From Bacillus multifaciens (lineage in GTDB: Bacteria > Bacillota > Bacilli > Bacillales > Bacillaceae_G), in NCBI RefSeq assembly GCF_030756675.1, contig NZ_JAVBXD010000010.1, positions 1 to 64,000 on the forward strand: a DNA stretch of 64,000 bases. The letters run 5' to 3'. The position numbers and the translations under genes were made by a program. This document shows, one piece after another, positions 11,091-50,339 of the stretch (position 1 is its first letter; every line of letters starts with the position of its first letter). Under the pieces are notes generated by a model. That model was given only the letters and a program-made list of their open reading frames with translations. It did no database searches and was not told where the DNA came from.

Positions 11091-12083
11091 TTATTGACTT
11101 TTGTTGAGTATCACAGCTAGCTGTTCAAATTTCTTTTTAAATTCTAAATCCTTTTTTAGCCAGCTGTGAAATGCTGCTTTTTTGATTCCGATACTTTCAC
11201 AGCAGTTATCAATAGAATTGTCTTGCTGATATTTAATAAGAAAATCTTTTTTTCTTTTAGTAACAGCAATTTGGGTTCTTTTTAGCTTCCTGTCTTGTAA
11301 TTGTTCTAAATTTAGCGTTTCTTGTTGAAACACTTCGTATTTTCTTTGTAAAAATAATTCTTTTTCTTTATAAATCCAGTCGGAAAAAAGTTTAATAGTT
11401 CTTCTACCACTTAAAATTACTCGGTAGTGTGTGTCTTTATTGATAAAATTCGGCTGAAAATTTTGTTCGTATAAGATTTCGCTTAAAGATTGCATAAAAT
11501 TATGAGAACCACCTACAAAGCTTACAGTATATTTTTGATAGTTTACATAACCATCTCCATCAAAATAACCTCTAATAAAATGATGTAAGAATTCTTTCGG
11601 GACATATGGGAATTGTATATCGTGTGATTTACAAGGAGTAACACCGTGTAAACCTATTAAGTCATATTTCATGATTTTGCTATTCAGGTTTAACATATAC
11701 ACTCCAGTATTTTTATTTATACATAACGGCTGGTTTGAATTTATTTCTTTTTTAATATCTTCTAAAATCCCTTTTTCTTTTTGAGAAATGCTAACTGTAT
11801 GATAGTTTTTAACTATTACGCCGTCAGCGATGAAAAAACCTAAAATGTATGCCATGTTGTTAGACCAAGTTTTAAAGTAATCTTCATTGATATCATATTT
11901 ACGCTTCCAACTGCCGCGCGCTCTCATTACGACATTATTATCTGTTAGGACCATGCGAACGTATCTAGAAGTAACGTTCGCTAAATTGGCAATGTCTGAT
12001 GTGCTAGAACCATCTAAATATAACTTAATCATTTCGCTCTTTTCCATTGTACATTTAGACCTTCCTCTGTTCTTTCTACACAT
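11091..12083 (-). CDS. Free-standing LAGLIDADG-type endonuclease with flanking HTH motifs
   Basis: 330 residues. Two LAGLIDADG helices are visible, YILGFFIADG (79-88) and FIRGYFDGDG (169-178), both with the metal-binding Asp, so the protein should be monomeric and catalytically competent. An HTH-like segment precedes them (IKLYLDGSSTSDIANLANVTSRYVR, about 19-43). A second HTH-like segment near the end (NSIDNCCESIGIKKAAFHSWL) may add DNA contacts. AAAGGGGA lies about 10 nt before the ATG. It is not inside an intron or intein in this window. Role: probably a selfish homing element. Confidence 0.82.
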   Translation of the reverse strand: MCRKNRGRSKCTMEKSEMIKLYLDGSSTSDIANLANVTSRYVRMVLTDNNVVMRARGSWKRKYDINEDYFKTWSNNMAYILGFFIADGVIVKNYHTVSISQKEKGILEDIKKEINSNQPLCINKNTGVYMLNLNSKIMKYDLIGLHGVTPCKSHDIQFPYVPKEFLHHFIRGYFDGDGYVNYQKYTVSFVGGSHNFMQSLSEILYEQNFQPNFINKDTHYRVILSGRRTIKLFSDWIYKEKELFLQRKYEVFQQETLNLEQLQDRKLKRTQIAVTKRKKDFLIKYQQDNSIDNCCESIGIKKAAFHSWLKKDLEFKKKFEQLAVILNKSQ

Positions 12084-37486: not shown

Positions 37487-39055
37487 TTAACTATGCAAAC
37501 TCCCTTTCAACCAAGGTCGTTGTCGATAAAAGCCGATTGGAATTTGGATGAGACTCGTTTTTTCTTCTGAATCTAGCTTGTAAATTTCATCACACAATTT
37601 CACATCGAATCCAAGAAGCGGGTGGCCTCCGAGTCCTATTGCAGAAGCTGCTAACAATAATTTCTGTACTAGGATGCCTGCTTCCATCTGTTGGATGCGG
37701 TATCCTCTATATCCAAGTTCAGTTTTAAGATGATTTTTATCCCCTACTACATGTAAACAAAGTGGTACTTGGAAGAGATTCACGTTGTGGAATGTCATCC
37801 CGCTTTGCAGTAAGAATCGATGATCTCCAAGATGTACTTGTCGTAATGCATGAGCATCGCTGTCATAATGATAAGCGCCATTTGGGATCCCTTCAACACC
37901 AAATAAACATACGTATAAGGAAACGCGGGATACCAGTTCTTCATGCTTTGTATCTAAATCGTTTTGATAGGAAAAAGAAGCAGTTGTATCATGTAGCAAC
38001 GTAGTCAATTGTTCTTGATTCATTTTCCGAAAAGTAAAATCCATTTCCGGTGAAAATCGATTTTGGCATGCGGCTGTTAAGTCGTACGACATTCGCTGTA
38101 TACGAGGAAGAACTAACGCTTGACCATCACGCATTCTATTCGTTTCACTCTTGATTTTTTGAAACGATCGTGTTGATTCAATCATAGATGCTTTATTCAT
38201 TTGAATCAACATTGGATACTGTGCAATATTTCGTGATCGGACATAGTGATTGTGGTGAATAAATGGTAATTCTTCACATAATTGAGTGGCAGAGACTTCT
38301 TTATTCGTAGCATCATTTTCAGTATTGAACTGTGTGGTTACAGAATTTACCGACAGAGGGATAACTGCATATACACTCTCCTCTTGATCGGATAACCCGA
38401 GTAAATGGTTGATGGCCCGGTCTAGAAATTGAAAATGCACACTTGGTGTGAACTGAAATCGTTTTGCTACTTCTAGCAATTGTCCGATTAACACACCTGA
38501 ATCCAATCCTTGCAGACGATAAGAAAAGTTATGGTATTTAAAGAAATTTTTCCAAAACATTGTCGATACAAAAATAACACCGAAACAAGCGGATGTGTCA
38601 CAGCTATTCCCAAGAGTCCGGGCTACATATGAATCAAAATTCCCTTCTCTTAATAATACTAAGCGGTGATGTGCAACGTCATAGTGGTAAATCCCAATAG
38701 GCACATTTTCCATCTTTAAATATATATACAATTCATTTGGATATAAGCCACCACCCGAGGGAATAAATCTCCGATAAGACTGCATAACATGTTTTTCTGG
38801 CGATGGTAAGGTTGACTGACAGAATTGAGTAAGCCCAAATACGTACCAAAGAAAATGACCGATTTCGCGAAGATTCGGTTCTATTGATACTTCGAGATTT
38901 TCAAGTGTTAACGTAACATCAGAAGGTAACGGAATTACCGGTAAGTCCCGATAAAGCTTATAGGGAAGTGGCCCGTCTTCCCAGTCAACCTCCCAAGTCG
39001 AGGAGGTTGATTCGTCATTAACGTGTAAATTGTTCAAAAATGTCTCTAAACTCAT
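37487..39055 (-). CDS. SagB-type dehydrogenase of the heterocycloanthracin locus
   Basis: 522 residues with two nitroreductase-like halves. Each has the Gly-rich pattern SGGGLYPNELYIYL (about 101-114) or a degenerate version, plus GVLIGQLLEVAKRF in the first half and GILVQKLLLAASAIGLGGHPLLGF in the second. SagB enzymes use FMN to oxidise thiazolines and oxazolines in TOMM peptides to azoles. AGGAGG is 7 nt before the ATG; the gene starts 22 bp after the YcaO gene. Fused double-domain SagB proteins are known from Bacillus TOMM loci. Confidence 0.9.
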   Translation of the reverse strand: MSLETFLNNLHVNDESTSSTWEVDWEDGPLPYKLYRDLPVIPLPSDVTLTLENLEVSIEPNLREIGHFLWYVFGLTQFCQSTLPSPEKHVMQSYRRFIPSGGGLYPNELYIYLKMENVPIGIYHYDVAHHRLVLLREGNFDSYVARTLGNSCDTSACFGVIFVSTMFWKNFFKYHNFSYRLQGLDSGVLIGQLLEVAKRFQFTPSVHFQFLDRAINHLLGLSDQEESVYAVIPLSVNSVTTQFNTENDATNKEVSATQLCEELPFIHHNHYVRSRNIAQYPMLIQMNKASMIESTRSFQKIKSETNRMRDGQALVLPRIQRMSYDLTAACQNRFSPEMDFTFRKMNQEQLTTLLHDTTASFSYQNDLDTKHEELVSRVSLYVCLFGVEGIPNGAYHYDSDAHALRQVHLGDHRFLLQSGMTFHNVNLFQVPLCLHVVGDKNHLKTELGYRGYRIQQMEAGILVQKLLLAASAIGLGGHPLLGFDVKLCDEIYKLDSEEKTSLIQIPIGFYRQRPWLKGSLHS

Positions 39056-39077
39056 CCTTCTCCCTCCTAATCATCAC

Positions 39078-41021
39078 TTATGCAAACGGATGTGGATGTG
39101 GATTGAGTTGTTCAAACGTTAGCGATTGCTTCGTATACCCAAGTTTCATTGGCACGTCTAATACTCTTTCTAGACCTATTAAGCGCGTAAGATGATGCCC
39201 AAATGTCATTGGCAACATTCCCGGAATGATTACTTTCACACAATGTAATCCATTTCGCATTATTTCTGGTGTCGTCTGATCTACTACAATCACATCGAGG
39301 TTTAACTGGTGTAACATATGAAGCATTTCTCTTAAATCATCTGTCAAATCCTCATGTCTCGTTTTCTGCTTGAATGCCTCGGTAAATGTTTGTAACGGTC
39401 GATTATTATTTAGCAAAAACTGAAACCGTTCTTCTGCTTCTGGCAAAGCGCATACCATAGGATGGTCATGCATTGTCTTCACAAGAGAAGGATTGTGGAA
39501 CATCTGTACATATTTCTTGTGATTCGCCTCAAGTTTCTTATCAAGTGTTAACATCATGCCTGCTAATTCAAATATTGCACTTTTCGCTCCTCGTACCGGA
39601 TCTAAATGGGCTCCAGCTGCACAGAGAATATTCATCCCCTTCTCTTTTCTGTTTTTTGCCAATGCCCAAATGCTTGGAATTCCGTGCTCCATTGTCGAGT
39701 TAAATACATGTATATCATATCCCCCTACTGCACGTACACGTTCTATCATTAACTGCAACTCTTGATCATTGACAGAAGAAAGATCAAGACGCGGGAGGGA
39801 AAGCTTTGCATACCAAGTTAACAGAAATGAATCGCGCTCAATGACTTCTAAAATGCCATAAAAAATTGCTTCTTCTAAACTGCCACCTAATGCACAACCA
39901 TTGGAAGTCTCATAAACAAAACCATCTTTACTACCTAAACTATAATAAGCAAGTAGTTCTGGAACTAAAATTGGACGTTCTTGTAGAAATGAATAACCCC
40001 ATACCCAGTTCATTGGACGATCTGGATGAAATGGTTTAAACGGGAAATTCGGTTTCATATATTGTTCCTTTGCGTGTACCCCTACTTCAAGAGGATTTAA
40101 TGCTTGATGACCTAGATTGCGGAACGTATCGTGAATGACTGTCCGTTTTCCCCGAGGCTCTAGACCGCAATATCGTTCTAATCCTTCTAAAATAGCAGTT
40201 AATTCACTCGTTGCATATGAATGAGTCCGGCCAGCCGTTGGTTCATTTCCGAAGAGAAGCGGAAGATTCACACTTACATCAGCAAATGGGGGCGTAAGAT
40301 CATACATTTTATCATTTAAAAAACCAGTCTCATAATCTAGATAATCTTTAACTAGTACTTTACTTAAATCAGATATTGAACGACAACGATAATTATCTAA
40401 GTTAACCTTTGGGCTTGATTGCAATGAAATTTTAGCTGAATGTGATGAATCATTAGGCATTTGGCTACAATTTGAGCATAAAGGATGAGGTAGAAAAAAA
40501 TGATAGGAGCTTTTCAAAGTTTGTAAATTTACGAAAAACATGTGTCCTTCTGATCGTACATAATCATTTTGTAGAATACACTGCACTTCTCTTAACAGAA
40601 TATGTGTCATCTGTCTTAATCCATTACTTGATGTCCATATGTCCCCGGGGATTTCCTTTTTCGATGATAAGATTCGCATTATTTCCCACATCTCTTTCGA
40701 ATCACTTCCTGCAAAAGTACGGCGTATATCTGCGCATTGGGAACATCCTGGTGTGCCAGGACGAACGAGCGGACCGATTATTCCTTTTCCAAATGAAACG
40801 AAAGCTCGCAACCAAGGGATATTCGCCGATTGAACTACACTTTCTGCCTGTTTATGAATAGAAGGATTCCAAGTATCATGTAAAACGAGAACTAAATCGG
40901 TTGTTGCTGGTATATTTAGATTAAAATTGGTGTTCTTGGTGATTTCATATCGGACAGCTAATTCTTCATATACACGATTTGCTAATAGTCCCTCTCCAAT
41001 AATTAAAATGGAAGCACTCAC
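39078..41021 (-). CDS. YcaO TOMM cyclodehydratase with N-terminal partner domain
   Basis: 647 residues. The N-terminal part (about 1-220) is a Rossmann/E1-like partner domain with Cys pairs CSQCAD and PLCSNC that probably bind zinc. The YcaO domain (about 240-647) includes TSELTAILEGLERYCG, SNGCALGGSLEEAIFYGILEVIERD and a Pro-rich C-terminus, NPHPHPFA. It uses ATP to cyclise Cys/Ser/Thr of the precursor to azolines. GTG start 41021 was chosen because AGGAGG lies 7 nt upstream; it overlaps the stop of the preceding gene as GTGA. Confidence 0.92.
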   Translation of the reverse strand: MSASILIIGEGLLANRVYEELAVRYEITKNTNFNLNIPATTDLVLVLHDTWNPSIHKQAESVVQSANIPWLRAFVSFGKGIIGPLVRPGTPGCSQCADIRRTFAGSDSKEMWEIMRILSSKKEIPGDIWTSSNGLRQMTHILLREVQCILQNDYVRSEGHMFFVNLQTLKSSYHFFLPHPLCSNCSQMPNDSSHSAKISLQSSPKVNLDNYRCRSISDLSKVLVKDYLDYETGFLNDKMYDLTPPFADVSVNLPLLFGNEPTAGRTHSYATSELTAILEGLERYCGLEPRGKRTVIHDTFRNLGHQALNPLEVGVHAKEQYMKPNFPFKPFHPDRPMNWVWGYSFLQERPILVPELLAYYSLGSKDGFVYETSNGCALGGSLEEAIFYGILEVIERDSFLLTWYAKLSLPRLDLSSVNDQELQLMIERVRAVGGYDIHVFNSTMEHGIPSIWALAKNRKEKGMNILCAAGAHLDPVRGAKSAIFELAGMMLTLDKKLEANHKKYVQMFHNPSLVKTMHDHPMVCALPEAEERFQFLLNNNRPLQTFTEAFKQKTRHEDLTDDLREMLHMLHQLNLDVIVVDQTTPEIMRNGLHCVKVIIPGMLPMTFGHHLTRLIGLERVLDVPMKLGYTKQSLTFEQLNPHPHPFA

Positions 41022-42943
41022 TGGGATTCCTCCTCTCCCAATAATACTCCAAATAGTCCCGCCAGTTCCTCCTTCCAAACGTCTTCTAGCGATATTTCAA
41101 ATACGTAAAGCCGCATTCCATTTTGTTTTAATGTCTGTTCAGCAGATTGTAATATTTCTTCTTGTGTCATGTTTTCACAAGAAGAAATATTGAAATGTAA
41201 TGGCAGTTTTTCTTGTAATAAAACTGATGAAGTCTTTAGTGCTTGTGATGCGTGGCAATCATCACAATTTTGTGCTTCTGTAAGTGCCTGTTGTAATGCT
41301 TTACGTAACGCTAATGTTTTATTTAACCCTACACTTCCGTACCAGCGATTATTTGTACTAATCCAAATCACAGGGAAATTAAAAACGTCCTCTCCTAAAG
41401 CGATTGTTGGTGTTCCTTGCAATGTAGTAAGTGCTTGCAAATAAACGCTGCAGCGCTCATCTTCAATTACATCTAATTTTAGCGTGGAAACAGAAATTTT
41501 TTGTTTTATTTGTCTCTTACGAAATTCTTCATCCAAACATTTTTGTAATCCCCTAGACACACATTCTGCAATCGTATCCCCGGCTCCAATTCCTATAAAT
41601 TGCTCATGTTCAGAAATTATTGAACTAGCAATTCGCGATATATAGGTCTCAACTCCGGCTAATCCAGCTTCATACCTTGCTTCCAAATGGGTCAAACCTG
41701 TACAAATCATATCTGGCAATAATTCAGCAGGGCCTTCTGACAGCGGGTCAACTGTTTGAATACGACATTGAGCCAATGGCAGCTGTTTTAAGTCACCTGC
41801 TTCCCAAATATGAAAAATCCCTGCTTCTTTTGATACAAGGGAATTCAAGTTCAAAGTAGGTTCATCCCATTTATTTTCACTTGAGCTCTGCTTGATTCTC
41901 GTATTGAAATCTGGAACCCATTTGATTTCCATCTTCTCAGTTACTAAGGGATGAGATAAAAAGGAATGCCAGTTTCCTTCTAACGTTTCGGAATTTAACA
42001 GAAAAAATTGATTTGTTTGCGTATGTTTCGTTACATCTGTAACCTTTTTGAACAGTTCAAATACAATTATATTTGCTAACATTGCCTCCGTTGTAGAAGA
42101 AAAAGTGTGTTCCCCTGAAGTTTTAGAAAATGCAGACTTGTGTAGACGTCGCCAAGCTGATTCCCAGCAAGCATCATTTTCTGGATGTACGAGTGGCCCG
42201 GCTAATCCAATGCCTTGCCTAGATATGGCAGGGATGAAAATCTTTTTTTCTTCTTTACAAATAGCATGAAGAATTTTTAATTCCTCTATGTCTTCTCCTT
42301 GTGATATATACAAAATCGCCTGAAATGGCTGCACTGCATCTTTCAAACCATTTCTTTTTTCTTTTTGTAAAAAAATTTCTTCAATTGCCATTTCAGGATC
42401 TGTTCTTTGTGCATATTCTATTAATTCTTTTAACCTTCTTTTATTAGTTTGAACGGAATCAGTAATTAGCATCTGGAATTGTGGTAATCCTGATTCAAGT
42501 AACGCAGAAACTAGGGAAACAAAAAAAGAACCAGAACCAACAACTAATACTTTCGTTTGGCGATAAGATTGAAAACGATATGCACCTGAAACGCCGAGGT
42601 TATCTAAAAATTCAATTTGAGATGCGTATTTTTTAAGAATATGTTCTGACAATTGGTGTGGATGATCTTGACTTATGTCTATTGCAAATTTATTTTGGTA
42701 CAGTATTTCTGCTATTTCAAATACTCGCTTTCGATATAGCTCAGGTAAGCCATCTGTCAAATTTCCTAATGTATTTTCCCCATTAAACATCGGCACCAGT
42801 TTTTCAATCCATTGATTGATTGATTTTCCTTCCATACGGAATGAACTGGCATTATTTCTAAAATACACTTCTCCTTTTGGATTAGAGAGAAAAAAAGTAT
42901 CTCGTTTCATTTTCAAACGCGTAGAAGAGTTAAATTTTGTCAT
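41018..42943 (-). CDS. ThiF-like TOMM maturation protein
   Basis: 641 residues. A Rossmann-like segment, SYRQTKVLVVGSGSFFVSLVSALLESGLPQFQMLITD, is E1/ThiF-like. It also carries REGIONS reminiscent of cyclodehydratase partner proteins (LVHPENDACWESAWRRLHKS; YEAGLAGVETYISRIASSIISEHEQFIGIGAGDTIAECVSRGLQKCLDEE). It matches my memory of the 'putative thiazole-containing bacteriocin maturation protein' of B. cereus/anthracis. Role: probably leader recognition or delivery to YcaO. AAGGAGGAG precedes the ATG. Confidence 0.85.
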   Translation of the reverse strand: MTKFNSSTRLKMKRDTFFLSNPKGEVYFRNNASSFRMEGKSINQWIEKLVPMFNGENTLGNLTDGLPELYRKRVFEIAEILYQNKFAIDISQDHPHQLSEHILKKYASQIEFLDNLGVSGAYRFQSYRQTKVLVVGSGSFFVSLVSALLESGLPQFQMLITDSVQTNKRRLKELIEYAQRTDPEMAIEEIFLQKEKRNGLKDAVQPFQAILYISQGEDIEELKILHAICKEEKKIFIPAISRQGIGLAGPLVHPENDACWESAWRRLHKSAFSKTSGEHTFSSTTEAMLANIIVFELFKKVTDVTKHTQTNQFFLLNSETLEGNWHSFLSHPLVTEKMEIKWVPDFNTRIKQSSSENKWDEPTLNLNSLVSKEAGIFHIWEAGDLKQLPLAQCRIQTVDPLSEGPAELLPDMICTGLTHLEARYEAGLAGVETYISRIASSIISEHEQFIGIGAGDTIAECVSRGLQKCLDEEFRKRQIKQKISVSTLKLDVIEDERCSVYLQALTTLQGTPTIALGEDVFNFPVIWISTNNRWYGSVGLNKTLALRKALQQALTEAQNCDDCHASQALKTSSVLLQEKLPLHFNISSCENMTQEEILQSAEQTLKQNGMRLYVFEISLEDVWKEELAGLFGVLLGEEESQ

Positions 42944-43047
42944 TGTACTCCTCCTTCACTGTTCGTTGCATTAAACTGTCATCATAACAATTTTATGTAT
43001 CCTATTTTTTCTTATGTCAAACGGAAAAAAGAAGAGTGGTTTATCAT

Positions 43048-43103
43048 ACTTAAAGAAAAGTGTCTCTACAATAAAGGTACAGTAGAAACGCTTTTCTTTA
43101 AGT
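43048..43103 (-). promoter_or_regulatory. Hairpin between precursor and maturation genes
   Basis: 21-bp stem: ACTTAAAGAAAAGTGTCTCTA (43048-43068) against 43083-43103 with only two wobble positions, 24 nt past the precursor stop. No T-run follows, so it looks like an attenuator or mRNA-stabilising structure that lets the precursor be made in excess over the enzymes. Confidence 0.7.
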
Positions 43104-43127
43104 AAAGTTTCAATTAAAAAATTGGGA

Positions 43128-43430
43128 TTAAATAATCCATATTCCGTCCCACCAGAATCCGGCGCCACCACATCCTCCGCAACCACCACAACCACCGCAA
43201 CCGCCACAGCCAACGCATCCAAAGCATCCAAAGCAACGGAATCCGCCGCAACGTCCGAACCCTCCACAGCGACCACCACAACCACCACAGCGGCCACAAC
43301 CACCGCAACGACGAGTATAGTCTTCTTCAATATAGTATGGAGAAGGAGTTTGACTATCCCAGTACACAACATTTCCAGTCTGATAATCATTTAAATTTAA
43401 CGTTTGAAGTTCTTGTTGAAAATTATTCAT
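43128..43430 (-). CDS. Heterocycloanthracin-type bacteriocin precursor peptide
   Basis: 100 residues: a leader of about 41 residues (MNNFQQELQTLNLNDYQTGN ... EEDYTRR) and a core with 14 Cys (42 to 87), mostly spaced Cys-X-X with X = Gly, Phe, Arg or Val. Cys66-Cys87 is an unbroken run of eight. The core ends in an aromatic tail (GFWWDGIWII). Start 43430 has GGAGG 7 nt upstream. The Cys residues should become thiazoles through the downstream YcaO and SagB enzymes. This class is described as heterocycloanthracin in B. anthracis/cereus. Confidence 0.95.
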   Translation of the reverse strand: MNNFQQELQTLNLNDYQTGNVVYWDSQTPSPYYIEEDYTRRCGGCGRCGGCGGRCGGFGRCGGFRCFGCFGCVGCGGCGGCGGCGGCGGAGFWWDGIWII

Positions 43431-43531
43431 TTCATAACCTCCATGTATATACTTTGCAAGTCGTAACAAAAAACAACTTGTAACAAAAGAGACGATAGAC
43501 CATTTCGAATTGCACTCCCCAACAAAGTATG

Positions 43532-43545
43532 ACCTAAAATTAGGT
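43532..43545. promoter_or_regulatory. Palindrome upstream of the precursor gene
   Basis: ACCTAAAATTAGGT is a 6-2-6 inverted repeat about 100 bp before the precursor start; a related CCTAATTTAG lies at 43565-43574. Could be a dimeric repressor site. Confidence 0.4.
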
Positions 43546-43618
43546 ATTGTGACTTGTTCAAATGCCTAATTTAGAATTATGTAATTTCACGTATGCTCTT
43601 CTAGCTTTAAAAAAAGAA

Positions 43619-43641
43619 AAAACACACTCTATGTGTGTTTT
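43619..43641 (-). terminator. Terminator hairpin
   Basis: AAAACACAC (43619-43627) pairs with GTGTGTTTT (43633-43641), just past the acetyltransferase stop. Confidence 0.75.
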
Positions 43642-43646
43642 CAAAT

Positions 43647-44078
43647 TTATAATTTCATTAACAATGTTTTTATATCATATTGCTCTAAGCACCAATTATA
43701 TTTATCTATAATCTGTTTAGGAACCGCAGTTAAATCTACTACTTCTTGAAATCCATGTTTACTATAAAAAGGTTTTAAATGTTCAAATGGTATACAATAT
43801 ACATTTTGAATTTGAAGTTTCCGTGCTTCATTAATTAGAAATGCAACGATGCTATCAGCGATTTTCTTTCCTCTATAGTCTTCTAACGTATATATTCCAC
43901 CCATTTCAAAGCTATTTTCATCAATTTTTACTAATCTTCCTAAGCCGGCTTTTTGACTATTAAAATATGCAATTGCAATCTCTTCATTTTCTAAATGTGA
44001 TGGTACAAAATCAACCTTTTCGTATTGAAAATTAACCCATTGTAAATCATCAAGTTTTGCTTTTTCTATATGTAACAT
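43647..44078 (-). CDS. GNAT-family N-acetyltransferase
   Basis: 143 residues. MGGIYTLEDYRGKKIADSIVAFLINEARKLQIQNVYCI is the acetyl-CoA-binding motif A (Arg-Gly-Lys-Lys-Ile variant), followed by FYSKHGFQEV (motif B). Start 44078 chosen because ATGGAGG lies 8 nt upstream; the upstream ATG is part of that site. Substrate unknown. It sits between the bacteriocin locus and the MFS gene with its own terminators. Confidence 0.85.
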   Translation of the reverse strand: MLHIEKAKLDDLQWVNFQYEKVDFVPSHLENEEIAIAYFNSQKAGLGRLVKIDENSFEMGGIYTLEDYRGKKIADSIVAFLINEARKLQIQNVYCIPFEHLKPFYSKHGFQEVVDLTAVPKQIIDKYNWCLEQYDIKTLLMKL

Positions 44079-44124
44079 TAGATTGGCCTCCATTTGATAA
44101 TTTTTTATGATTTAAACATAAATT

Positions 44125-44153
44125 CCCCCAAAGTTTATAGAACACTTTGGGGG
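44125..44153 (-). terminator. Rho-independent terminator
   Basis: CCCCCAAAGT (44125-44134) pairs with ACTTTGGGGG (44144-44153), directly downstream of the MFS pump gene. Confidence 0.88.
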
Positions 44154-44159
44154 AGTATT

Positions 44160-45383
44160 TTATTCTATATTTCGATTCATTTTATGGTGCGCAGTAACAC
44201 CCACCTCAACTTTTTTTATTGGCAAAAACGTTCCAATACATGCAATACATGCACAAACTGCAAATACAAATGGTAATGACTTAACGGCTACGAATGATAG
44301 TGTTCCGAAAATAATAAGGTCCAATATCGAATCTAAAACAGACAATAACGAAATCGTTGTTGCACGCACATGAGACGGAATTATGTCATTACTAAGCTGC
44401 GAGTATATCGGATAACGAATTGCACGTACGAACCGTAAAATAAAGAACGCTCCTAATACAACCCACAATGTATCTCCAAAAAATGTTGATAATAGTAAAC
44501 CACTAACAGCTAACCCTCCTGATACATTCATTAACATTGTACGTGAGAATCTATTAGTAAGCCATCCGATTGATATCGAAGAAAAGTATCCAAGGATAGC
44601 TGCTAAAGCATACATAACGCCAATTGCAAATACAGGAAGGCCTGCGTTCGTAAACAACGGTTGGTTAAAAGCGTCATATACTGCACTTGCTGGAATAAAA
44701 ACAAGCGAGACGTTTAAAAACATAATAAGTAATTGCGGTGCTTTACGAATTACCTTTATCCCTTTAATTATTTGCGAAACAGATTCTTCTCGGTAAGATG
44801 ATAGTTTCTTTGGACTTTTGATAAAAAATAGTAAAGCAAGTTCTACCAAATGAAATACTATTCCAAGAACAATTAATAATGTAAATTGTTCTTCTCGTAA
44901 ATCTTTAGCGAAATACGAGCCGAAGATTACAGCGATTAACATGGAAATAAAGCCTGCTGATTGGATTTTCCCCATTGCTTGATCCATTTCATGTTGCTCA
45001 TTATTTTCTTTTAACGATTCATAAATAAGTGCTTCATCTGCACCGGAGAAAAATGTAACTGACAAACCGTTCAATAAACTGTATACACAAAAAATCCATA
45101 GATTGTCTGCAAATAATAAGATAGAAATACTGACAGTTTTTATGATCGATCCTGTCAAAAATGATAATTTTGCACCGAATCGATCCGCATAAACACCTGC
45201 TGGGATTTCCCCAATAAGTACTGCCACGCTCCAACACATCATGACAATAAAGATATTTGCTGCCGTTAAGCCTTTTTCCATATAAAAAAGAGTCATTACG
45301 GGCTGTAAAAAGCTAATTGTTCCAAAAAATTGTACCCAAAATAAAATCGAAATATTATGTGTTGCGATTGTTTGTTTCTTCAA
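44160..45383 (-). CDS. MFS transporter under leader-peptide control
   Basis: 407 residues, about 12 membrane segments, motif A in EIPAGVYADRFGAKLSF (about 58-74) and a central cytoplasmic loop. TTG start with AGGAG 4 nt upstream. The 5' region holds an 18-codon leader with a strong ribosome-binding site and two competing hairpins, one of which hides this gene's ribosome-binding site. That layout is common for antibiotic-inducible resistance genes, so a role in export of a ribosome-targeting drug is inferred. Confidence 0.85.
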   Translation of the reverse strand: MKKQTIATHNISILFWVQFFGTISFLQPVMTLFYMEKGLTAANIFIVMMCWSVAVLIGEIPAGVYADRFGAKLSFLTGSIIKTVSISILLFADNLWIFCVYSLLNGLSVTFFSGADEALIYESLKENNEQHEMDQAMGKIQSAGFISMLIAVIFGSYFAKDLREEQFTLLIVLGIVFHLVELALLFFIKSPKKLSSYREESVSQIIKGIKVIRKAPQLLIMFLNVSLVFIPASAVYDAFNQPLFTNAGLPVFAIGVMYALAAILGYFSSISIGWLTNRFSRTMLMNVSGGLAVSGLLLSTFFGDTLWVVLGAFFILRFVRAIRYPIYSQLSNDIIPSHVRATTISLLSVLDSILDLIIFGTLSFVAVKSLPFVFAVCACIACIGTFLPIKKVEVGVTAHHKMNRNIE

Positions 45384-45388
45384 TTGTT

Positions 45389-45473
45389 CTCCTACTTTCC
45401 GTTATTCATTTTTCATAATGGATTTAGGAAGCAGGAGTGCTATATTACGTTAGTTGATATTCACTCCTCTTCC
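45389..45473 (-). promoter_or_regulatory. Translational attenuator of the MFS gene
   Basis: Three segments in mRNA order: A = GGAAGAGGAGTG (45473-45462, inside the leader ORF), B = CACTCCTGCTTCC (45439-45427), C = GGAAAGTAGGAG (45400-45389, containing the MFS ribosome-binding site). A pairs with B (12 bp, one bulge) and B pairs with C (11 bp including one G-U, one bulge), so the two stems exclude each other. Confidence 0.7.
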
Positions 45474-45506
45474 TACGCTTGAAAATGTTTTTAGTGTTTT
45501 TTGCAT
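45450..45506 (-). CDS. 18-aa leader peptide
   Basis: MQKTLKTFSSVGRGVNIN, with AAAGGAGG (45514-45521) 7 nt before the ATG. The last codons form segment A of the attenuator. It has no signal or known motif; its likely purpose is to sense ribosome stalling. Too short for homology. Confidence 0.7.
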   Translation of the reverse strand: MQKTLKTFSSVGRGVNIN

Positions 45507-45671
45507 GTTATTTCCTCCTTTAATATAGATAGGTTTATTATAGCAATTTTCTTAATATTAAAGAAATGTTTTTGAAAATCATGATAAGATTGTAGGAACA
45601 TGTAAAGTAGTATATAATAAAAAACAATAAATGATTATTTTAGGTATTCCTAAAATAAAGGAGCGATACAT

Positions 45672-45776
45672 ATGAACATTACTATTTATTTTGGAAGCCA
45701 TGAAGATCAAGAAGTACGTACAATGGATTGCCATTTAGATGTCGAAGATGCTGAAGAAATTTCATCTATTTCTTAA
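45672..45776 (+). CDS. Small acidic protein, 34 aa
   Basis: MNITIYFGSHEDQEVRTMDC then HLDVEDAEEISSIS. AAAGGAGCG lies upstream of the ATG and a terminator follows at 45826-45848. Acidic, one Cys. Not recognised. Confidence 0.5.
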   Translation: MNITIYFGSHEDQEVRTMDCHLDVEDAEEISSIS

Positions 45777-45825
45777 TATAAATATACATAATATTATGGG
45801 GAAGTTCTCTTCCCTATTCTTTATT

Positions 45826-45848
45826 AAGATGCCTTTTTAAGGCATCTT
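45826..45848 (+). terminator. Rho-independent terminator
   Basis: AAGATGCC (45826-45833) pairs with GGCATCTT (45841-45848), followed by T-run. Confidence 0.85.
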
Positions 45849-45976
45849 TTTTGTTTATTTTTGAGGATAAAACATTTACTTTTTAACGAATAAATAGTAC
45901 AATATGAACATAAGAACAAATGTTCGTTTTTTGTCTCATCCCCCTTTGGGATAGATACTAGGAAGGATGGATTTCA

Positions 45977-46681
45977 TTGGCTCAAAATAAACGCAGAGGA
46001 AGAAAAAAGCATACTCCGACTATATCAAATACAGGCTTTATTGGCTCTGTGTTTATCGATACATTAGAACTTCAAAAAAAATCATATTACTTTTCTCGTA
46101 AACGACTGCATATTGCGCATCATGTATTAGATGGTCTTGCACAAGCAACAAGTTCTCTTTTCGCTGAACATCATGTTTCTGCTTACTTATCGTGTGTGTA
46201 TCTACATAAACAAAAGAAAATTGGGTTTGTTCTTTCGACGAAACCTTTTAAAGAAGCTGAAGGTGTTGCATATTTTAAAAATTATTTAATTGAAAAGAAC
46301 TTTTATAACGGAAATATTGAAGAAGAAAATTATCAAGAAATTTTTAACACTGGTTTTATTGGTGTTGTTTTTGCAGATTTATCAAGCATCGATCGTTTTA
46401 ATTTTGATTTTGAAATGACTCTTTTATCAAAGTTAATGAAAGACATGATTATTCCAGTTAAAGAGTTATTTTTACGTAATAAAATTCCAGCATACATTTC
46501 TACTGTCAATTTGGAAGATCAACAAAAATTAGGGTTTGTTTTATCTGTAAAGCCATACGATGAACGTTCTGAAGCTGATTTGTATTTTGAAATGTATTTG
46601 AGAGAACGTGGTTTATATATTGGTGATGAAGAAGATGATATTGATAAGATTGTCATTCGAAAAAAAGTTGAGATATTATAA
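45977..46681 (+). CDS. Unknown protein with two tandem homologous domains
   Basis: 234 residues from a TTG start (GGAAGG about 10 nt upstream). Two units of about 100 residues are alike: ...NTGFIGSVFIDTLEL...ISAYLSCVYLHKQKKIGFVLSTKPF...YFKNYLIEKNFYNG and ...NTGFIGVVFADLSSI...IPAYISTVNLEDQQKLGFVLSVKPY...YFEMYLRERGLYIG. No membrane segments or catalytic motifs are recognised. The duplication suggests a symmetric two-lobed fold. Function unknown. Confidence 0.75.
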   Translation: MAQNKRRGRKKHTPTISNTGFIGSVFIDTLELQKKSYYFSRKRLHIAHHVLDGLAQATSSLFAEHHVSAYLSCVYLHKQKKIGFVLSTKPFKEAEGVAYFKNYLIEKNFYNGNIEEENYQEIFNTGFIGVVFADLSSIDRFNFDFEMTLLSKLMKDMIIPVKELFLRNKIPAYISTVNLEDQQKLGFVLSVKPYDERSEADLYFEMYLRERGLYIGDEEDDIDKIVIRKKVEIL

Positions 46682-46682
46682 C

Positions 46683-46719
46683 AAAAAGGATGGTTAATAT
46701 ATAATTAGCCATCCTTTTT
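46683..46719. terminator. Bidirectional terminator
   Basis: AAAAAGGATGGTTAAT (46683-46698) and ATTAGCCATCCTTTTT (46704-46719), one wobble pair, between convergent genes. Confidence 0.88.
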
Positions 46720-46726
46720 GCTTAAA

Positions 46727-47236
46727 CTATTTAAAGTTTTCATTTTCTAATACTACAACATCTTCATTTGTTAATCTTCCAGCCTGCTTTGTATATTCAA
46801 CGAGCCTGATTATATTATCGCAAGCTTGTTTTGCACCGGAAACTAATAATGGCACGCCAATAAAATCAATTTTTAATCTTCTCGAAAATAAACCACCGAT
46901 CGTCATCGCAAATGGTACAGTTGGTGATGTATTAGAAAACACAATTTTTTCGTGGTTTTGATACTTATCTTGTAATAGTATACTTAAATTTTTTAAAGCT
47001 GGAACCACAACTTTAGATGCACCATGACCGACTGTATAAACTGGATCACCGTTTTCATCTCGTCCGTGAAAAATAATTTTCCCCATATCGGAAGTTTTTA
47101 GTTTATTAAAATAATCAACGTTTAATATCTCGTCTTTCGTAAGTTTCCGATCCGTTGGTAGTTTTTTTAAATGATATGCTGCCGCTAATGAAGTTGTATG
47201 TGTCCCGCCATAATCAGTATAAATATAAATCATCAT
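46727..47236 (-). CDS. DUF3189 protein
   Basis: 169 residues, beginning MMIYIYTDYGGTHTTSLAAA (the family's opening strand and loop) and containing KIIFHGRDENGDPVYTVGHGASKVVVPAL. Start 47236 was chosen because AAAGGAT lies directly upstream; the longer frame to 47278 adds an unlikely N-terminus. Cytoplasmic, function unknown. Confidence 0.85.
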   Translation of the reverse strand: MMIYIYTDYGGTHTTSLAAAYHLKKLPTDRKLTKDEILNVDYFNKLKTSDMGKIIFHGRDENGDPVYTVGHGASKVVVPALKNLSILLQDKYQNHEKIVFSNTSPTVPFAMTIGGLFSRRLKIDFIGVPLLVSGAKQACDNIIRLVEYTKQAGRLTNEDVVVLENENFK

Positions 47237-47340
47237 ATCATCCTTTAAATTGATATACATGATTATTATTGTTACCAATATTTAGCGTTATAATCTAAAA
47301 GTAGTATTTAGCATCAGCATAAATAATATCAAAAACTTTT

Positions 47341-47459
47341 GGAACAAGGGAGTTAGCTCGGCGGTCTTAGACTAATTCGTTAGCTATCAAAAGTAACGAC
47401 TAACCGAGAAGCCCCCACTTCAAACAATCCGTAAGGACGCTAAGTGGCGGGTAGTTCAC
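47341..47459 (+). mobile_element. Solo right end of an IS200/IS605-type element with omegaRNA-like fold
   Basis: A GC-richer block with nested hairpins: CTCGG (47357-47361)/CCGAG (47404-47408), CGTTA (47378-47382)/TAACG (47394-47398), and CCACTT (47415-47420)/AAGTGG (47442-47447) extended by CCC/GGG. It ends GGGTAGTTCAC. This is the layout of the 3' end of tnpB-type IS605 elements, which encodes the omegaRNA scaffold. No tnpA, tnpB or left end is present. Its last bases supply the stop codon of the bcrC-like gene. Confidence 0.6.
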
Positions 47460-48055
47460 GCTGTATGATTGTACTTAGACAGTATTGGAATTCGTTTTGT
47501 TATTATAGCGTAAATTTGAAATATGAGACGTGCCAAAGGTTCTACTTTGTTTGTATATTTGACTACTAAAGCACTTGTTATGAAAGATAAAACAGCTCCG
47601 CCTATAATATCTGCCGGATAATGAACACCTACATATATACGTGAAATGCCAACTAGTATAGCCCAAAACAATGCGATATTTTTCCAAGCTTCTCCTCGTA
47701 AAATCATTGTAAATGCTATAGAAAATACAAGTACAGCATGGTCACTTACAAACGAGGAATCAGCAGCGTGTGGCACTAATTTGTGCACATGATATGTGAC
47801 AAATGGTCGTGGATGATAATAAAGTGCATGAATCAAAACATTTACAAGTAGTGCTGTACAGACAGAAATTGCTGTGTACAAAACTGTATATTGTTTACGC
47901 ATAGCTGTTTCTTTTTGTCCATTGCTAAACCATAAAGAAAGCATCAAGATAATTGCAACATATGGGGCGCTGCTTGTAATAAATATCATCCCTTTGTCTA
48001 ACAAAGCGAAGGATCCTGCCCAATTATTAATCCAGTGGAATATTGTGTAATTCAT
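47456..48055 (-). CDS. Undecaprenyl-diphosphatase, BcrC/PAP2 type
   Basis: 199 residues with five or six membrane segments and the PAP2 signature: HALYYHPRPFVTYH, SSFVSDHAVL and ISRIYVGVHYPADIIGG. It dephosphorylates undecaprenyl diphosphate to recycle the wall lipid carrier and gives bacitracin resistance in relatives (BcrC). The C-terminal codons abut the IS605-type end at 47459, so the last residues may differ from those of unbroken relatives. Confidence 0.9.
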   Translation of the reverse strand: MNYTIFHWINNWAGSFALLDKGMIFITSSAPYVAIILMLSLWFSNGQKETAMRKQYTVLYTAISVCTALLVNVLIHALYYHPRPFVTYHVHKLVPHAADSSFVSDHAVLVFSIAFTMILRGEAWKNIALFWAILVGISRIYVGVHYPADIIGGAVLSFITSALVVKYTNKVEPLARLIFQIYAIITKRIPILSKYNHTA

Positions 48056-48170
48056 ATAATTCTCTCCTTGTTTACATTCAGTACGTAATTACCTATTTCG
48101 TTGATTTACTCAGTATATACTGGCAAAATGAAATGTTCTTAAATTTTTTCTCATCTTTTTCTCATTTTTC

Positions 48171-48210
48171 TTCGGTATTTATAAAATGTATTCGGTATTT
48201 ATAAAATGTA
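48171..48210. repeat. Tandem duplication of a 20-bp unit
   Basis: TTCGGTATTTATAAAATGTA occurs at 48171-48190 and again exactly at 48191-48210, in the gap between the histidine kinase end and bcrC start. Confidence 0.85.
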
Positions 48211-48226
48211 TAATAAGTCCACAAAT

Positions 48227-48261
48227 AAAAGCGAGAAGTATGCAATCTACTTCTCGCTTTT
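48227..48261 (-). terminator. Rho-independent terminator
   Basis: Perfect 14-bp arms AAAAGCGAGAAGTA (48227-48240) and complement (48248-48261). It overlaps the end of the histidine kinase gene. Confidence 0.9.
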
Positions 48262-49668
48262 TACACAATTAAACACTAAAGTAACTGTCGTTCCTTTTTG
48301 TTCTTTGCTGTCTATCATAATACGTCCATTGTATTTTTCTACAAGGCGCTTTGCGATGGAAAGTCCTAATCCATTTCCGCCTTGTTTTCGGCTTCTTGCT
48401 TTGTCGACTCGGTAAAAACGATTTAGTACATATGGCAATTCAGACTCTGGTATTCCGACTCCGTGATCTGTAATGGTAATCTTAATTTTCTCTTCTTCTA
48501 CCTCGCTTTGCAAGCAAATGTATTTTTCATGTTCTTTTGTATATTTGATCGCATTATCTAGTATAATAACTAAAATTTGTTCGAGATAAGAAGCTGGAAT
48601 AGAAACACATGCATGATTCGTATGTAATTGTCTCTCAAATTGAAAATTCGCATGCAGCAATTCGAAATTTTGTGTAACTTGTTCTATTACTGAATTTACA
48701 TGTACAGGGTCGGCTGCAAGAGGATACATTTGTTCCGATTCTGCCCGGGATAATTCTAATAACTCTGACACAAGTTTATTGAGACGATCTACTTCTTTTA
48801 GGCTAGAATCTAACGACTTTTGTAATATAGCAGGGTCATCCTTTCCCCAGCGGTTTAACATAGAAAGATGTCCTTGTATAATCGCAAGTGGTGTGCGTAA
48901 TTCATGGGATGCGTCTTCAACGAATTGCTTTTGTTGCATAAAGGATGTTTCTAGATTGTTCATAAGCTCATTAAAAAGCAGTCCGAGTTTGGTGAATTCA
49001 TCATTGTTTTCGTGAATTGGTACCCTTTCTTTTAATCCATTTGTCTTAATTTTGTTCATCGTATCTGTAATAGCTTGCACACTTAATAGAAGTTGCTTTG
49101 CAAGAATGGTACCGCCTAAAAAGCTAAGAAGCAATCCCCCAATACCGGCAGCAATCATAACAAGAAAAATAAGCTTCATTAAATGATCAAAAGCTTCAAA
49201 GTTTTGTGCAACTTCAATTGTACCAGTAAATGTATGTGTTGTAATCGGCGTGCGCTGTACAAATATTCTATCTTCAAGCTGCCTTTTCATAGAAGTTTCA
49301 GGTCGATCGACGTGCTTTGGCTTAACTAAATTCGGTTCAAAGTCACGTGAAACAATGACAAGTTCCTTTCCTTTTGCATCCAAAATTCGAATCATTTGAT
49401 GTTTATCATTAATAGTTGCAAGAAAATCCTTACTGTTTTCAATCATATCTGCAGAAAAATTTGTATTCTCATTCTTAAAATAAGCTTCTATTTCTGTTAC
49501 TTGCCTATTAATTTGCTTTTTTTCATAATCAAGCGTCCAATGGTCAATAATCACATATTGTAAAATATTATATAAAAAGAATAAAACAAATATTAATGTG
49601 CTGGACCATAGTGTTAATTTCCATTTTACAGGAAGATTCCGGATGCGATTTCTTAGTTGCTTCATCAT
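48247..49668 (-). CDS. Sensor histidine kinase
   Basis: 473 residues: TM1 about 18-40, an extracytoplasmic sensor loop (about 40-160), TM2 about 166-190, HAMP, HisKA with phospho-acceptor His in FVEDASHELRTPLAIIQGHLSML, then HATPase blocks (ILDNAIKYTKEH, DHGVGIPESELPYVLNRFYRVDKARSRKQGGNGLGLSIAKR). OmpR-class partner immediately upstream; the start overlaps the regulator's stop as ATGA. It reads an envelope signal; target genes unknown. Confidence 0.93.
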   Translation of the reverse strand: MMKQLRNRIRNLPVKWKLTLWSSTLIFVLFFLYNILQYVIIDHWTLDYEKKQINRQVTEIEAYFKNENTNFSADMIENSKDFLATINDKHQMIRILDAKGKELVIVSRDFEPNLVKPKHVDRPETSMKRQLEDRIFVQRTPITTHTFTGTIEVAQNFEAFDHLMKLIFLVMIAAGIGGLLLSFLGGTILAKQLLLSVQAITDTMNKIKTNGLKERVPIHENNDEFTKLGLLFNELMNNLETSFMQQKQFVEDASHELRTPLAIIQGHLSMLNRWGKDDPAILQKSLDSSLKEVDRLNKLVSELLELSRAESEQMYPLAADPVHVNSVIEQVTQNFELLHANFQFERQLHTNHACVSIPASYLEQILVIILDNAIKYTKEHEKYICLQSEVEEEKIKITITDHGVGIPESELPYVLNRFYRVDKARSRKQGGNGLGLSIAKRLVEKYNGRIMIDSKEQKGTTVTLVFNCVKSEK

Positions 49669-50339
49669 CGCATCACATATCCTACGCCTCTGACAGTTTG
49701 TATATACGTTTCTTTGTCTTTGCTATTTAATTTATTACGTAAATAACGTACATAAACGTCTACTATATTCGTCTCTACCACTGCATTGTATCCCCAGACT
49801 TGCTCTAAGAGCATGTCTCTTGTTAATACGCGATTGATATTTTTCATAAACATCATAAGCAACTCGAATTCTTTATTTGTTAACTCAATTATCTCTTCTG
49901 TTTTGTGTAAAGTTCGAGACTCTACATCAAGTTCTAAATCTTTAAATCTTAAAAGAAGTTTATTTTTATGCTCTTCTTTTTGATTTCTTCTCAAAATCAC
50001 ACGCATTCTTGCTAACAGTTCTTCAATGGCAAAAGGCTTCGGTAAATAATCATCTGCACCGCTATCTAATCCAGTTACACGATCCATGATACTATCACGA
50101 GCTGTTAACATAATAATAGGCGTTTCTTTTGTTGCACGTAATCGGCGGCATACTTCAATTCCGTTAAGACCAGGAAGCATTAAATCAAGAAGAATGATGT
50201 CATAATTATGCTCAAGAGCTGTTTCTAAACCTTTTCTTCCATCATACACAACATCGACTGCGTATCCTTCATATTTGAGTTCTAATTCTAAAAATTCTGC
50301 TAAACTTTCTTCATCTTCAATAATTAAAATACGTTGCAA
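49665..50339 (-). CDS. OmpR/PhoB-family response regulator
   Basis: 224 residues. Receiver domain with LLDLMLPGLNGIEVCRRLR (phospho-acceptor Asp about 53), MLTARD and PKPF. Winged-helix DNA-binding domain (about 130-224), ending YIQTVRGVGYVMR. TTG start at 50339 has AGGAG 8 nt upstream and is preferred to the GTG at 50348 that overlaps the site. First regulator gene of a three-gene unit with the kinase and membrane protein. Confidence 0.93.
   Translation of the reverse strand: MQRILIIEDEESLAEFLELELKYEGYAVDVVYDGRKGLETALEHNYDIILLDLMLPGLNGIEVCRRLRATKETPIIMLTARDSIMDRVTGLDSGADDYLPKPFAIEELLARMRVILRRNQKEEHKNKLLLRFKDLELDVESRTLHKTEEIIELTNKEFELLMMFMKNINRVLTRDMLLEQVWGYNAVVETNIVDVYVRYLRNKLNSKDKETYIQTVRGVGYVMR

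Follow-up and report, generated by a model that had tools for sequence, protein, structure and literature searches.

A conserved leader reading frame that probably acts as a translational attenuator of reversed sign ahead of an MFS pump gene in Bacillus multifaciens

How might a short reading frame placed just ahead of a pump gene decide whether that pump is made? The question is raised by a stretch of Bacillus multifaciens DNA of 64,000 nucleotides (nt; positions 1 to 64,000 of contig NZ_JAVBXD010000010.1, assembly GCF_030756675.1), referred to here as the window, in which an 18-codon leader open reading frame (ORF) precedes a gene for a pump of the major facilitator superfamily (MFS). A preliminary description, made from the sequence alone, had proposed that three RNA segments, A, B and C, pair with one another in alternative ways and thereby control the Shine-Dalgarno (SD) sequence of the pump. 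Our results indicate that the leader ORF is very probably part of a conserved RNA switch acting on the pump. In addition, we regard a translational attenuator of reversed sign as the likely explanation of the whole, and the direction of the switch, in which the translated leader would be the off state and an early stall the on state, is probable from modelled RNA folding; that drug induction is its natural role is a reading towards which we lean with less assurance. The computed support consists of conservation, covariation between A and B, the spacing of the elements and a switch point that is predicted to lie around codons 7-10.

The leader and its pairing segments in the window and in related loci

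The leader ORF (MQKTLKTFSSVGRGVNIN; 45450..45506, minus strand, as are all features of this section) runs from an ATG at 45506-45504 to a TAA stop at 45452-45450, behind a strong SD region read from the sequence (AAAGGAGG, 45514..45521). Segment A (GGAAGAGGAGTG, 45462..45473), the putative anti-sequestering arm, lies within leader codons 12-15, segment B (CACTCCTGCTTCC, 45427..45439) can be the partner of either A or C, and segment C (GGAAAGTAGGAG, 45389..45400) includes the pump SD sequence GGAG, followed by the TTG start codon of the pump at 45381..45383. The leader with its strong ribosome-binding site ahead of an MFS gene, the three segments and the ribosome-binding site within C were thus all found as the preliminary description had read them. 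The core duplex energies in the window are -22.4 kcal/mol for A:B and -16.5 kcal/mol for B:C. RNA folding, which that description had named as a way to check it, showed that the free RNA of the window folds into A:B; the folded region has a z of -2.0 against shuffles, 7 of 200 of which fold as well, a modest value taken alone.

To place the locus among its relatives, a first scan of genome contigs gave five pump loci with 58-65% identity, from Rossellomorea vietnamensis, three Sporolactobacillus and Bacillus sp. B1-b2. A pump search centred on Bacillus sp. B1-b2 (397 genomes of its order, E <= 1e-60) found the pump in 65 genomes at 66 places, and the closest pump found was 69% identical to that of the window. 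A plasmid collection contributed one close pump, in Cytobacillus spongiae, and no close pump was found in a viral collection. The 70 pump loci analysed comprise 65 of the 66 places, three others, the Cytobacillus spongiae plasmid relative and the window; genome G005, whose pump is truncated, was excluded, and its leader was found by the covariance model described below. The leader ORF together with A, B and C is present in 56 of the 70 loci, which is stronger evidence against chance than the fold of the window. The leader peptides are diverse (MQKTFKTLSLFQEGVNVLN, MLKILELMTLQRRDDSI, MQKNLMIFSTPAAGVNAV, MQKRIKIFFKSMKRGFANTE) while A and B change together. Absence of conservation in relatives had been named in advance as an outcome that would speak against the proposal; the leader, its spacing, A, B, C and the covariation of A with B are all kept. 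Further comparisons were made on an alignment, A1, of 52 rows from the 56 leader loci, which omits the 14 leaderless loci and four others whose leader is present and too divergent (L040, L057, L061 and L074).

In A1, the ten A:B pairs span 520 cells, and 90.8% of these hold a standard base pair. The covariation score of A:B is 0.358, whereas shuffles average 0.185; none of 500 shuffles is as high, the maximum for slid versions of the pairing is 0.177, and changes on both sides were seen at three of the pairs, in 14, 12 and 19 sequences. RNAalifold, unprompted, draws the A:B stem alone, with no other stem in the consensus. The B:C pairs are standard in 79.9% of 618 cells, with a score of 0.194 against 0.157 for shuffles (0 of 500 as high) and a maximum of 0.158 for slid versions. 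Thus, of the covariation that the preliminary description had asked of relatives, that of A:B is clear, whereas that of B:C appears weak in these alignments, probably because C must also serve as the SD sequence.

The position of A relative to the leader start is also narrowly kept. The A core lies 39 nt from the start in 33 of the 52 rows and 34 nt from it in 13, and the remaining six have 30, 36, 38 or 41 nt. Relative to the leader start, A stands in three reading frames (37, 13 and 2 of 52); the rows with 34-nt spacing read A in a different frame, and the start-to-A distance varies little. Because A stands in different frames, it appears to be conserved as RNA. In the leader of L123 (MLKIYLHMLYSTKKE), A overlaps the stop codon; its core lies 41 nt from the start and in the third of the frames.

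These data bear on the possibility that the leader boosts the pump through translational coupling, re-initiation or stabilisation of the mRNA, with A, B and C incidental. Leader genes that raise downstream translation have been proposed (PMC4833913; this and the other PMC papers are cited from excerpts). However, A and B covary, A is kept in different frames, and the leader stop is separated from the pump start by 49-102 nt, with a median of 63 (55 of 56 loci; L019 left out). We consider this explanation very unlikely.

Is the leader ORF read at all? At codons 2-9, the ratio of nonsynonymous to synonymous differences (pN/pS) across 17 sister pairs of relatives is 0.45, on the small numbers of 19 synonymous and 30 nonsynonymous differences, and it is 0.70 and 0.82 in the other two frames and 0.33 for codons 2-6 in frame. 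These values suggest mild selection at the protein level on the beginning of the leader. Before A, codon 3 (Lys or Asn) alone is near constant in both main spacing groups. An SD-like purine run occupies the leader SD position in the whole alignment, and its strength varies among rows. A riboswitch or protein-binding element with an unread leader ORF would account for a conserved A:B-like hairpin, which could bind a ligand. It fits poorly with a leader SD kept throughout the alignment, with the pN/pS at codons 2-9 (small numbers as these are), with the narrow start-to-A spacing, with A:B as the sole RNAalifold consensus stem, and with the lack of an Rfam match, and it is highly unlikely. Families of Rfam were considered and rejected: no Rfam 15 family scored above its gathering score at 40000-50000 of the window, four matches obtained at E up to 5 within 45200-45700 all lie under their gathering scores, and in six relatives the sole matches were cspA and purine elements (L044, L017), distant from the leader.

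The leader is preceded by a predicted extended -10 promoter element, read from the sequence (TGCTATAAT, 45537..45545), whose position places the predicted transcript start about 20-25 nt upstream of the leader start codon. The element is absent from the promoter-scan output for the window, a scan that demands a -35 hexamer. In 23 of the 52 aligned rows, the hexamer matches at five or more of its six positions and a TG stands at the extended position, and 50 of the 52 reach a -10 score of at least 5 on a scale counting TG as 1.5.

To evaluate specificity, we used a covariance model, R1, of 160 positions. It matches 51 of the 397 genomes of the order, at one place each, and a scripted check showed that every one of the 51 shares its contig and strand with a pump place. 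In 50 of them, the end of the R1 match overlaps the pump match by up to 27 nt or precedes it by up to 19 nt; in G183, the R1 match ends 183 nt before a pump match that begins only at pump residue 72. Model rows came from 47 of the 51 matched genomes, the others being G005, G022, G067 and G376. Among the four leader loci outside A1, R1 recovered L057, L061 and L074 and missed L040. Of 36 genomes from the G107 family, 24 contain a match, 15 of them new, and at all 15 new loci the pump adjoins the match (61-66% identity). Among 398 genomes drawn from the class there were four true matches, two outside the model (G005, G626); five other genomes had six weak places between them, with 30.4-33.2 bits. 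No pump was found by tblastn at the six weak places; the L132 locus ends at a contig end, where the match region is not visible. In the searched genomes, R1 matches of at least 40 bits always lie beside the pump, and those of 33 bits or less lie without one.

On the pump tree, the presence of the leader requires 4 changes, against 14.7 for shuffled labels. This tree has 70 rows, 16 of them leaderless including three outgroups, and omits L022, L079 and L080, which have short or broken pump reads. Leader-bearing rows occur on most main branches, and the deep branching is unresolved. A well-supported leaderless clade of ten (L025, L028, L030, L031, L032, L035, L036, L037, L038 and L039) groups with the window and L016 (95/89). 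Since leader rows stand on most main branches and one clade of ten is without them, the simplest reading of the tree is that the leader was lost from a leader-bearing ancestor.

Ribosome position and access to the pump SD

How could the position of a ribosome on the leader decide between the two helices? We positioned a ribosome at every leader codon in turn and folded the RNA that lay downstream of it; the ribosome was taken to have a footprint reaching 15 nt past the first base of its P-site codon. In the window, access to the pump SD was 0.64-0.85 for codons 1-6 (0.85 at codon 6); it then fell to 0.02, 0.001 and 2e-5 at codons 7, 8 and 9, respectively, and to about 7e-8 from codon 10 onwards. 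The median over the 52 rows was 0.073 at codon 7 and 6.8e-7 at codon 10, and the steepest drop fell at codons 7-10 in 48 rows. When the ribosome is at the stop codon, the part of the RNA that remains uncovered begins, in the median, 2 nt ahead of B (from 45 before to 3 inside), and B would therefore be free to pair with C. Access in an early stall (codon 5) was more than five times that in the stop state in all 52 rows and in all 17 loci outside the alignment, among which L112 and L113 share one leader region, identical to that of the aligned L045. The A:B core duplex was stronger than B:C in 48 of the 52 rows. When the leader was masked as by a terminating ribosome, none of 100 shuffles of the window mid-region hid the pump SD as well; in the same test, 29 of the 52 rows lay at or below 5% of their own shuffles and 23 did not. 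Masked folding thus reproduced, with exceptions in some rows, the logic originally claimed, namely that full translation hides the SD and that an early stall or no translation frees it.

The preferred reading can be set out as follows. The leader ORF would act as a ribosome-loading device. Ribosomes reading through to the stop would cover A, so that B pairs with C and the pump SD is hidden, and repeated translation of the leader would keep this off state. If ribosomes are halted within about the first seven codons, or do not load, A would be free to capture B through the stronger A:B pairing, which would expose C and turn the pump on. Ribosome-targeting antibiotics may be the natural trigger, and the pump may export such a compound.

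A classical mechanism of the erm/cat type, in which a drug-bound ribosome stalled late in the leader unzips an SD-hiding hairpin, has much in common with this proposal, as each has a helix that hides the SD and an efflux gene preceded by a short leader whose own SD is strong. In the window, however, the B:C helix lies entirely outside the leader ORF, and over the 52 rows the terminating ribosome usually ends before B. A ribosome stalled late would cover A and hiding of the SD would therefore be favoured; the median access at codons 10-16 was only about 3e-7 to 7e-7. Late stalls thus keep the SD hidden in masked folding, erm/cat logic was rejected on this ground, and we judge this mechanism very improbable. 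Sensing of amino-acid starvation as in trp has the same three-segment logic (partly general background; PMC4191407), but the leader has no conserved run of one amino acid and the target gene is an MFS pump, which leaves little room for it. Amino-acid sensing was rejected for want of a codon run in the leader. Transcription attenuation was also considered and rejected: a consensus terminator scan of 44000-46000, made in the window only, listed no minus-strand terminator between 45506 and 45383.

Several observations weigh against an attenuator of reversed sign. First, the leader is absent from 14 of the 70 pump loci, namely ten that form the clade, three that are scattered and one with a truncated pump (L080), whose upstream region is uninformative about the leader. 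Second, six A:B pairs show change on both sides, a count reached by 85 of 500 shuffles; 186 of 500 shuffles match B:C in the number of such pairs, and three of six slid versions of B:C exceed 25 cells changed on both sides (28, 26 and 46). Third, the conserved leader start M-x-K may aid efficient initiation and not a stall. Fourth, the energies are those of RNA alone, with the assumed footprint. SD access in the early stall is below 1% in 12 of the 52 rows (median 7.5%), and in the free RNA it is below 1% in 27 (median 0.8%). In addition, the SD of L044 and L046 pairs with the first pump codons in the low-access state, and in L065 B:C outcompetes A:B.

More tentatively, the element may be a lineage-wide sensor of leader occupancy, in which translation itself represses and any agent that stops ribosomes early or blocks their loading, whatever its class, opens the pump; such a sensor would be trp-like, would act purely on translation initiation and would have persisted in one pump family for most of its history. 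For a pump that is itself uncharacterised, the locus offers a concrete and conserved candidate for a system of inducible control, and its natural variants are suited to testing how ribosome position on a leader decides downstream initiation. A searchable covariance model is supplied, and inducers, if found, would hint at the exported substrate.

The pump and its neighbourhood

The pump (44160..45383, minus strand) is a protein of 407 amino acids with a TTG start and a Pfam MFS_1 match of 102.6 bits. Its best NCBIfam match, the best among several weak ones, is TIGR00900 at 63.3 bits, under the cut-off of 319.6; by this curated cut-off the pump is not a member of the TIGR00900 H+ antiporters, a model whose label we take to be DHA3. 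Several drug-efflux models also match below their cut-offs, the match to the Mef(A) model is weak (26.1 bits against a cut-off of 675), and among solved structures the pump has remote MFS relatives only.

Directly 3' of the pump, a hairpin seen by eye (CCCCCAAAGT...ACTTTGGGGG, 44125..44153, minus strand) is a possible transcript end; it is not in the terminator-scan list. Its place after the pump stop suggests a pump transcript separate from that of the bacteriocin cluster farther on. That cluster, of the heterocycloanthracin/sonorensin type of thiazole/oxazole-modified microcins (TOMM; 37487-43430, minus strand), lies on the same strand beyond the pump and a GNAT gene, with the hairpin after the pump. 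Its precursor gene (43131-43430, minus strand) matches TIGR03601, of the heterocycloanthracin/sonorensin family, with 118.4 bits, and ocin_ThiF_like, SagD-like and SagB-like proteins are also encoded. Membership of the precursor in this family may point to the B. cereus group.

On the other side of the leader, a divergent small ORF of 34 codons (MNITIYFGSHEDQEVRTMDC..., 45672-45776, plus strand) was read by eye behind AAAGGAGC. At 45977-46681 (plus strand) lies a gene for a 234-residue protein with two similar halves, each with NTGFIG.VF by eye, for which no Pfam or NCBIfam match was found at E 0.001. Elsewhere in the window, an ORF at 11091-12083 (minus strand) shows by eye the motifs AYILGFFIADG and FIRGYFDGDG, which presumably resemble those of a LAGLIDADG homing endonuclease.

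Comparison with known leader systems

Does the element belong to a known class? No description of this leader was found in the open-licence PMC literature searched. The features general to attenuators are recognisable: a short, apparently translatable ORF with its own SD lies directly upstream in 56 of 70 loci, and A:B and B:C, sharing B, are predicted to be mutually exclusive helices, one of which hides the SD, with weak covariation for B:C. The preliminary description had spoken of the logic of drug-inducible resistance genes; this does not hold in the classical erm/cat sense, and the proposed logic is closer to that of trp and bmrB, transferred to translation initiation.

In erm/cat systems, the stalled ribosome itself breaks the off-structure, whereas here A would do so, and the ribosome would have to halt before reaching it. 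In the folding model, a stalled ribosome was not predicted to open the SD-hiding helix directly. A leader peptide with alternative structures that hide or free the ribosome-binding site of a resistance gene is common to both (PMC5418344).

In Escherichia coli, the upstream ORF (uORF) toiL pairs with the SD of topAI; a stall anywhere in toiL has been proposed to unmask this SD, and at least five drug classes act there (PMC12121999). The present element is like toiL in that the translation state of a short uORF would decide whether the SD of the next gene is hidden, and unlike it in that the pairing partner of the leader is B, the anti-SD segment, and in that unmasking of the SD should require an early stall. 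Pairing of the leader with the pump SD itself was not found, as A is purine-rich, resembles C and pairs with B.

At vmlR of B. subtilis (PMC9226507) and cplR of Clostridioides difficile (PMC10201436), a stall on a uORF also turns a resistance gene on, partly by freeing its SD; those systems, however, also use transcription termination, and their targets are ABCF resistance factors. The stall consensus reported for such very short uORFs is MIN for VmlR, MR[I/M] for CplR and MK[L/Q] for VmlR2 (PMC9226507, PMC10201436). Expression was all but lost when the start or the SD of the vmlR uORF was mutated (PMC9226507), whereas the present design predicts the opposite. The mef/mel macrolide efflux operon likewise places an MFS efflux gene under a leader attenuator, but it relies on transcription attenuation and is carried on mobile elements (PMC4335068). 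Excerpts of a survey of B. cereus efflux pumps mention a leader peptide once, for BmrB (PMC5417439), and those of a study of attenuators of amino-acid genes in Actinobacteria contain no match to the present leader (PMC1262725).

The closest parallel in sign is bmrB of B. subtilis, where free translation leads to termination and ribosomes slowed by drugs such as lincomycin lead to read-through (PMC4191407). Like bmrB-bmrCD, the present leader would give the off structure when its translation is undisturbed and the on structure when a ribosome is slowed, with a drug pump downstream. In contrast, bmrB acts by transcription termination on an ATP-binding cassette (ABC) transporter, and no intrinsic terminator of the kind used by bmrB and vmlR was found between leader and gene in the window scan; here the ribosome-binding site of the pump would be hidden. 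By analogy, the element may thus be described as having the sign of bmrB while acting on the SD sequence.
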